Origin: Flexistipes sp.
GTDB taxonomy: Bacteria; Chrysiogenota; Deferribacteres; Deferribacterales; Flexistipitaceae
Reading direction: 5' to 3'
Assembly: GCF_036172515.1 (NCBI RefSeq)
Contig: NZ_JAXKVW010000002.1
Span: 124,001-188,000, forward strand
DNA: 64,000 nt
How positions within the stretch are numbered: the first letter of the stretch is position 1; every line of letters starts with the position of its first letter. This document shows, piece after piece, positions 19,512-31,142 of the stretch. Position numbers and translations under genes: made by a program. The notes beneath the pieces are model-generated. The model saw nothing but the letters and a program-made list of their open reading frames with translations. It was not told the DNA's origin and ran no database searches.

Positions 19512-19592
19512 ACTCTGACTTTTTTGTTTTCAGCTGCATTATAGATTAATATTTTTATCCGGTAAAGATAAGCTGACGTCACCCCATTTTTC

Positions 19593-19898
19593 GCAGTGCA
19601 AATATTTTTCAATGTAATTTGCACGCATTTCACAGCCGAAACTCGAAACTACTGCCGCTAACCGCCTACACCCTCCTCTCATAATTGTTTTTATTTGCAG
19701 ATAGTTATCCACTTTGCATTCCAACACAGGGTGTGACCGCTAACCGGCAGTACGTTTCTCTAGCACCAGCCGAAAGGCTGGTAAATATGTGGAACACATT
19801 CGACATCGGCTGCTTCATTTGTGCAAATTACATTGAAATCAGTGTCATGTTAACTAAGTATATGTAAAACAATATTTTTATATAATTTTTGGGGTGAT
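19593..19898. repeat. nested inverted-repeat element, copy 1
   Basis: A 306-bp sequence with a homologous copy at 30719-30985. Four nested perfect stems can be traced: 19607-19624 with 19821-19838 (18 bp), CAGCCGA 19633-19639 with 19806-19812, TACTGCCG 19650-19657 with 19745-19752, and ACACCCT 19668-19674 with 19728-19734. Copy 1 carries about 40 bases absent from copy 2 (about 19761-19802), including a 7-bp hairpin with a GAAA loop. It has no conserved reading frame. It lies between the divergent nagZ-like gene and ettA, in a 463-bp gap with no other recognisable content. A mobile MITE-like element or a structured RNA are both possible. Confidence 0.8.
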
Positions 19899-19974
19899 AT
19901 CAATAAAGATAAGCCCTTGTAAATTCTTTTTTAATTCGTTAGCCTTGGATAAAACAAAACACAGGAGCAGTAAT

Positions 19975-30614: not shown

Positions 30615-30718
30615 TGCTGAAGATTATAGGAGAAATGCTGTAAAGTCAATGTGTATAGCTGTTTTACCTTCCCATTTTTTATTGTGTACACAAATTTATC
30701 GGTTTTCGACCGATGCTA

Positions 30719-30985
30719 GCAGTGCAAATATTTTTCAATGTAATTTGCACGCATTTCGCAGCCGAAACTCGAAACTACTGCCGCTAACCGTCTACACCCT
30801 CCTCTCATAATTGTTTTTATTTGCAAATATTTATCCATATTTACATTCCAACACAGGGTGTGACCGCTAATCGGCAGTACGTTTCTCAAACATCGGCTGC
30901 TTCATTTGTGCAAATTACATTGAAATCAGTGTCATGTTAGCTAAGTATATGTAAAACAATACTTTTATATGATTTTTGAGGTGAT
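30719..30985. repeat. nested inverted-repeat element, copy 2
   Basis: Homologue of 19593-19898, 267 bp, with the same four nested stems: 30733-30750 with 30908-30925 (18 bp), GCAGCCGA 30758-30765 with 30893-30900, TACTGCCG 30776-30783 with 30872-30879, and ACACCCT 30794-30800 with 30855-30861. The GAAA-loop hairpin of copy 1 is missing. Just to the left, ATCGGT/ACCGAT around 30698-30714 makes a separate hairpin. The rest of the 528-bp gap 30615-31142 contains no gene that I can see. As with copy 1, the element sits between divergent genes. Confidence 0.8.
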
Positions 30986-31142
30986 GCCAGACAAGACCAA
31001 AATATGTTTCAACAACTGATGTGGCCAATGTTTTTTGAACTTTTTGTGCGGTAAAACCAACTTATATTCAGGCAATTTTATTTTGCATGGTTTTATGAAA
31101 CATGTTAAAGATATGTATAATATTATTGAAACGAGGTTTAAT

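Follow-up and report, generated by a model that had tools for sequence, protein, structure and literature searches.

The stretch of DNA analysed here (hereafter the window; 64,000 nucleotides, G000:C2:124001-188000) belongs to the 2.47-Mb draft genome of a Flexistipes species, G000, which we compared with two congeners, G001 (one contig, 2,526,590 bases) and G002 (88% complete). It carries two copies of an element described in the initial annotation as four nested perfect stems lying between divergent genes. The stem sequences were found as stated in both copies, each of which does lie between divergent open reading frames. Homology extends past the right arm, as had been noticed, but the limits then given were too narrow, copy 1 in fact running from 19573 to 19903; similarly, the GGGGTGAT seen on the right is present but belongs to the right terminal inverted repeat (TIR). 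The features of the two copies are listed below, with the basis of each in brackets.

19563..19572, no strand: left target-site duplication TAAAGATAAG (10/10 bases the same as the right one)
19573..19903, + strand: MITE copy 1, 331 bp, TIR to TIR (TIR pair in locus L001; alignment with 15 other copies)
19573..19586, + strand: left terminal inverted repeat CTGACGTCACCCCA (TIR pairing)
19607..19624, + strand: left arm of the 18-bp stem, TTTCAATGTAATTTGCAC (sequence; fold of sibling L003)
19761..19801, + strand: nested mini-element, CCAG class, site B (empty siblings; scan; DNA fold z = -5.2)
19821..19838, + strand: right arm of the 18-bp stem, GTGCAAATTACATTGAAA (sequence; fold of sibling L003)
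19890..19903, - strand: right TIR, a degenerate one whose reverse complement is TTGATATCACCCCA (TIR pairing)
19904..19913, no strand: right target-site duplication TAAAGATAAG (10-bp duplication of copy 1)
30659..30990, + strand: MITE copy 2 (left end decayed, position approximate)
30680..30718, - strand: nested mini-element, ATCGG class, site A (empty siblings; scan; fold)
30977-30990: right TIR of MITE copy 2 (one mismatch)

An alignment of 16 copies places the ends of the element (CTGRCRTCACCCCA ... TGGGGTGAYGYCAG) outside the four stems, with terminal inverted repeats of 14 bp (CTGRCRTCACCCCA) enclosing a non-coding interior that forms a long palindrome. Further nested stems pair AGCCGA with TCGGCT, ACTGCCG with CGGCAGT and ACACCCT with AGGGTGT. 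Folded as DNA, the insertion-free sibling L003 gave stems of 18, 8, 8+5 and about 7 bp, one inside the next, at -47.6 kcal/mol, equalled by none of 200 shuffles. This very stable fold (z = -7.3) and the divergent genes on both sides of each window copy agree with the earlier suggestion of a dispersed structured RNA or cis-regulator, whose stems would be conserved for RNA function. We nevertheless regard that explanation as highly improbable. In an alignment of 11 copies the stem columns hardly vary and so yield no compensatory signal, and neither the window nor six loci matched an Rfam family at the gathering threshold. Three loci (L012, L059 and L060) exchange their outer arms wholesale, and 38 of the 43 terminal-repeat pairs have target duplications, as detailed below. 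These three loci are variants of the MITE in which the swapped arms read inward to the conserved core, each end bearing the sequence of the opposite end of the common form.

Searching the own genome and its relatives for further copies, as had been proposed, was productive: the two copies noted in the window are both real but belong to a dispersed family, a copy-1 query matching 48 times in G000 and 52 times in G001, counts that pool whole copies, fragments and nested pieces. Across 59 genomes (its own included) the matches were confined to G000, G001, G002 and G030, the last with one weak match. A wider genome collection contained the 18-bp stem in 13 unrelated genomes, with one match each; a wider spread was rejected, these single matches being judged chance, although near genomes are possibly absent from that collection. 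A script that paired terminal repeats in the fetched loci recovered 43 distinct pairs, 37 of MITE size and six of 1473 bp. Target duplications of 8-11 bp with at most one mismatch flank 38 of the 43 pairs, compared with 12 of 1806 mismatched flank pairs, while the other five lack a duplication. Two loci of G000, L022 (1465-1565, contig C16) and L024 (1496-1596, contig C19), contain 101-bp mini-versions of the MITE that keep both terminal repeats and duplications of 9-10 bp, their interior being nearly gone.

The six longer pairs correspond to a 1473-bp insertion sequence (IS) present in six copies in G001, which has both ends in common with the MITE: its right end is the left end of the MITE over 24 bp, and its left end is the right end of the MITE over about 50 bp. 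Six intact transposase frames of this IS were found in G001, with products of 471-473 aa that match DDE_Tnp_1 above its cut-off (E 3.8e-14). The nearest NCBIfam model is IS4 (NF033591, E 3e-18), followed by IS701 and IS1634; because its score of 66 bits falls below the curated cut-off of 152, we call the transposase 'IS4-type' and do not file it as an IS4 member. In the G000 draft we found no intact transposase, only a 63-aa remnant. That assembly is broken at the MITE, at least four contigs (C9, C21, C26 and C28) starting or stopping within copies, and IS copies may therefore be missing from it. G001 also contains a second DDE transposase family with about 41% identity to that of the MITE partner, in at least seven copies (G001:C1:28257, 322784, 697098, 720647, 867877, 1402087 and 2030704).

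The window feature is a MITE, and its partner is an IS4-type DDE transposase. Mechanistically, this transposase very probably mobilises the MITE in trans, and the MITE ends derive from both ends of the 1473-bp IS. The initial annotation had been right in what it observed and partly right in interpretation: it had offered a non-autonomous mobile element, adding that precise terminal repeats with a transposase copy would make it simply a MITE, and such repeats are found, as are duplicated targets and a partner that bears a transposase. As such the MITE is ordinary, one more member of an element type already known. It resembles bacterial IS4-type MITEs in its TIRs, its target duplications of about 9 bp, its lack of coding sequence and the ends common with an autonomous IS, and differs from them in its palindromic interior of four nested stems and in having been used repeatedly as a landing site by a second family of mini-elements. 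The novelty lies in this smaller mobile family, which is present within both window copies and had been missed.

Comparison of the two copies locates the first of these mini-elements, since copy 1 has a 41-nt insertion (19761-19801) that is absent from copy 2. At this site (site B) many sibling MITE copies keep the empty form TTTCTC^AGACATCGG, and the inserted element reads TAGC-ACCAGCC(GAAA)GGCTGGT-AAAT-ATGTG(GAA)CACAT-T, plus a replaced base C. Copy 2 has its own element of 39 nt at site A, TAGC-ATCGGTCGAAAACCGAT-AAAT-TTGTGTACACAA-T plus a replaced base A, and sibling copies have the empty form GCACTRC^GAAAAATGG. The unit can be written as T[AG]GC-hairpin1-AAAT-hairpin2-Y and is mostly 38-41 nt long. 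Classes with unrelated stems have this T[AG]GC/AAAT plan in common (reversed control 0):

CCAG class: hairpin 1 ACCAGCC...GGCTGGT, hairpin 2 ATGTG-GAA-CACAT
ATCGG class: hairpin 1 ATCGGTC...GACCGAT, hairpin 2 TTGTGTACACAA
ATCCG class: hairpin 2 ATGCC-GCA-GGCAT (locus L205)
AGCTAT class: head TGGC, hairpin 2 TTGAC-GAA-GTCAA

Among 239 T[AG]GC..AAAT candidates collected without requiring a stem, 154 had stems shorter than 5 bp and 85 had stems of 5-8 bp, and a second stem of at least 4 bp directly followed the AAAT in 59 of these 85, compared with 4 of 340 flank windows. A control with random half-hairpins also paired often, because the stems are common to many copies, and our argument is therefore based on the bimodal split together with the control on the flanks. 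A pattern of the feet only (ATTTA, 12-24 of any base, RTGCTAG), which reads the unit from its other strand, had 64 occurrences in G000 and 53 in G001; reversed, it had 5 and 2. In a 400-kb sample of G001, made up of 20 stretches of 20 kb at even spacing, all six T[AG]GC-headed matches with two hairpins had the AAAT linker, and the reversed sample gave no two-hairpin T[AG]GC match.

The stems of the mini-element covary. An 18-row alignment misplaced the TGGC class and the short forms of hairpin 2, so five rows were dropped, and both the model and the pair counts are based on the 13 rows that remained. Seven of 12 pairs change on both sides (four in hairpin 1 and three in hairpin 2), with a covariation score of 0.468 against 0.181 after shuffling; the rows were picked by a scan that requires stems, which biases the percentage of paired positions. 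At E <= 0.001, the resulting covariance model found 95 mini-elements in G000, 79 in G001 and 33 in G002, whereas the remaining 56 genomes had none. In larger dispersed repeats (for example L148-L156, L164, L175 and L186) many copies contain a mini-element doublet, whose flanks often resemble TTCGCTCGAGGTGACA. A mini-element lies near the 3' end of a presumably IstB-like gene in five copies in G001 (G001:C1:29687, 762729, 881029, 1823071 and 2030449) and in a related copy in G002 (G002:C2:14093).

How the unit inserts can be read from natural pairs of empty and filled sites. A script comparing flanks with all loci gave an uninterrupted counterpart for 32 of 71 distinct element contexts, which we grouped by eye as 11 target sites and a possible further one in G002 (L280, with 3+3 mismatches) that was dropped as too weak. 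The twelfth site, site H (L205 against L148), comes from a separate comparison and was not recovered by the stricter script. At all 12 sites the unit T[AG]GC...Y is inserted without a target duplication. The base before the insertion is C at nine sites, G at two and T at one. The base after it is A in 11 of the 12 empty sites and G in the other, and in the filled sites it is C in six and A in six, having been altered at seven sites and kept at five. These counts take in four sites within hairpin 2 of other mini-elements, and the p-values calculated from them treat the sites as independent. The 12 sites have no fixed target tetra- or pentanucleotide in common, just the C before (9/12) and the A after (11/12). 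The mini-element thus inserts mostly after C and before A, without duplication, the next target base ending as A or C.

The four sites within another mini-element's hairpin 2 follow a strict geometry, always two bases from the ATTT linker and on the opposite strand. One gene provides a three-stage series: it is empty in G001 (L248), has one element in G000 (L247) and has two in another G000 locus (L250), where the second sits in hairpin 2 of the first. Profile searches gave no match for this gene, which is presumably transposase-like, of the IS110 kind. Nesting reaches four levels in L131 and L051, in which the MITE harbours an ATCGG element, this one a TGGC element, and the latter a CCAG element. 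By a count made by eye on the feet-pattern list of G000 and G001, close pairs on opposite strands are heads-out in 11 of 11 cases and 13-15 bases apart. Mini-elements that enter hairpin 2 of existing members on the opposite strand produce such inverted heads-out pairs, with REPIN-like geometry.

We hold with high confidence to the MITE and its partner and to the limits, structure, clean insertion and nesting of the mini-element. A possible origin in host processes, by which hairpins would spread through template switching, gene conversion or palindrome repair without a dedicated enzyme, has some appeal: no enzyme is linked to the hairpins, the one-base replacement resembles repair and the loops vary among site B copies. 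Such an origin appears quite unlikely to us, given that the boundaries are constant at 12 unrelated or partly related sites and that the unpaired TRGC, AAAT and terminal Y are kept while the stems change. For the mini-element, the lack of target duplication speaks against mobilisation by a DDE enzyme. We propose instead that it may move as single-stranded DNA through a trans-acting HuH Y1 transposase, of the REP-associated or the IS200/IS605 type. This is our best guess at the enzyme, and the chances that it is right are about even. Hairpins with unpaired tetranucleotides at their feet, the C|T 5' edge and the C^A targets fit the cleavage rules of TnpAREP proteins, whose cleavage site is C|T, one of them cutting C|A as well (available part of PMC8266576).

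The Y1 genes of G000 and G001 match the REP_Tyr_transpos model with scores under its cut-off. In the seven Y1 loci scanned (L134-L140) no mini-element stands beside the gene, and a RAYT as partner in cis was rejected on that account. G002 gave no Y1 match despite its 33 mini-elements (genome 88% complete). A 223-aa transposase of the REP-associated type (G000:C25) is flanked by a palindrome of its own, TCACACTTCGTAAGTGTGA (L135, 690-980 and 1560-1760), and is possibly a separate REPtron. A 294-aa Y1 transposase occurs in several copies (G000:C4:44499, C14:4929 and C18:35827; G001:617721 and 1008130), and the pairs compared have common flanks from about GGGGACAGGTAAATAAT to TTATGTTTGAT, so that this gene seems to move. 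The ends of its unit do not resemble the mini-element. Co-distribution with the mini-element was tried and rejected: the 294-aa gene is in G000 and G001 and not in G002, with weaker relatives in genera free of mini-elements.

Among known systems, REP/REPIN sequences with their RAYT resemble the mini-element in being short covarying hairpins in tens to about 100 copies, with inverted doublets and a C|T 5' end. According to the available portion of Bertels and Rainey 2011 on Pseudomonas, doublets are the replicative unit and singles defunct remnants (PMC3116915). A strict REP/REPIN reading, with the inverted doublet mobile, single hairpins as remnants and a cognate RAYT, would account for the copy numbers (95, 79 and 33), the covarying stems, the inverted doublets and the RAYT-type Y1 genes of G000 and G001; TnpAREP cleavage at C|T and C|A, as given in the accessible text of PMC8266576, would also agree with the C|TAGC edge and with C^A as the frequent target. 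It seems unlikely all the same, as singles are cleanly inserted at eight sites outside the hairpin 2 of other mini-elements, doublets come from a second insertion and the element flanks no Y1 gene. The GTAG tag is absent too: the head is T[AG]GC after C, and where GTAGC appears, at some sites, its G is the base that precedes the element. Unlike REP/REPIN, moreover, the mini-element consists of two different hairpins in tandem, inserts as a single and forms doublets by self-targeting.

The ends of IS200/IS605 elements (IS608, ISDra2) offer the other close likeness, having subterminal hairpins with a tetranucleotide 5' to each hairpin foot. Their hairpins, tetranucleotides and insertion without a larger target duplication are described in the parts available of PMC6006769, PMC8266576 and PMC2817692. 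The mini-element could be a non-autonomous derivative reduced to the left-end and right-end hairpins with TRGC and AAAT as guides, a serious possibility that we nonetheless hold to be doubtful. The two subterminal hairpins with a conserved unpaired tetranucleotide 5' of each, the absence of target duplication and the orientation fixed relative to the target all point in that direction. On the other side, we found no relative of full length that has these ends, and the target is C (9/12) before A (11/12) and nothing more. One target base is altered at 7 of the 12 sites; a replaced target base is not known to follow from IS200/IS605 chemistry. Nor is there a replichore strand bias in G001 (19+/14- against 16+/16-, p = 0.62), in a weak test that covers the 65 of 79 matches that were listed, carried copies included. 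The mini-element further differs from IS200/IS605 in its size of about 40 nt, gene-free between the ends, with one target base replaced and a loose target.

The small dispersed repeats of cyanobacteria are very short palindromic repeats. The palindromic elements of Rickettsia are, by description, like the mini-element as well, being very short palindromic repeats, some of them within genes (available part of PMC3733652). Unlike in both of these, the boundaries of the mini-element come from empty and filled pairs nested up to four deep. In its behaviour the mini-element recalls a REP, or an IS200/IS605 element stripped down, yet it lacks defining features of each. In the literature covered, general and on the genus and for the most part outside subscription journals, we found no nested two-hairpin unit.

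We consider possible, at somewhat less than even chances, a reading in which the unit of about 40 nt would be a complete transposon with precise boundaries, made of two hairpins and two tetranucleotides and nothing else, which moves singly, swaps one target base and homes to hairpin 2 of its own kind; the REPIN-like inverted doublets would then result from nested insertion, and the ancestral mobile unit would not be the doublet. On the same reading, and just as tentatively, the unit would be among the smallest with both ends defined by natural empty and filled sites. For REP-like hairpins, cleavage is known in vitro and, in vivo, a few excised doublets, going by the accessible portions of PMC3116915 and PMC8266576. 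Here, at least 12 natural empty/filled pairs fix both ends of the unit, its target rule and the route from singles to inverted doublets, and the mobile unit and its enzyme are directly testable within one genus. A passage from singles to REPIN-like doublets through nested insertion would be the opposite of the Pseudomonas view published in PMC3116915, as far as the available part of that paper sets it out. Nests of mini-elements are thereby a readable record of how tiny bacterial repeats spread.
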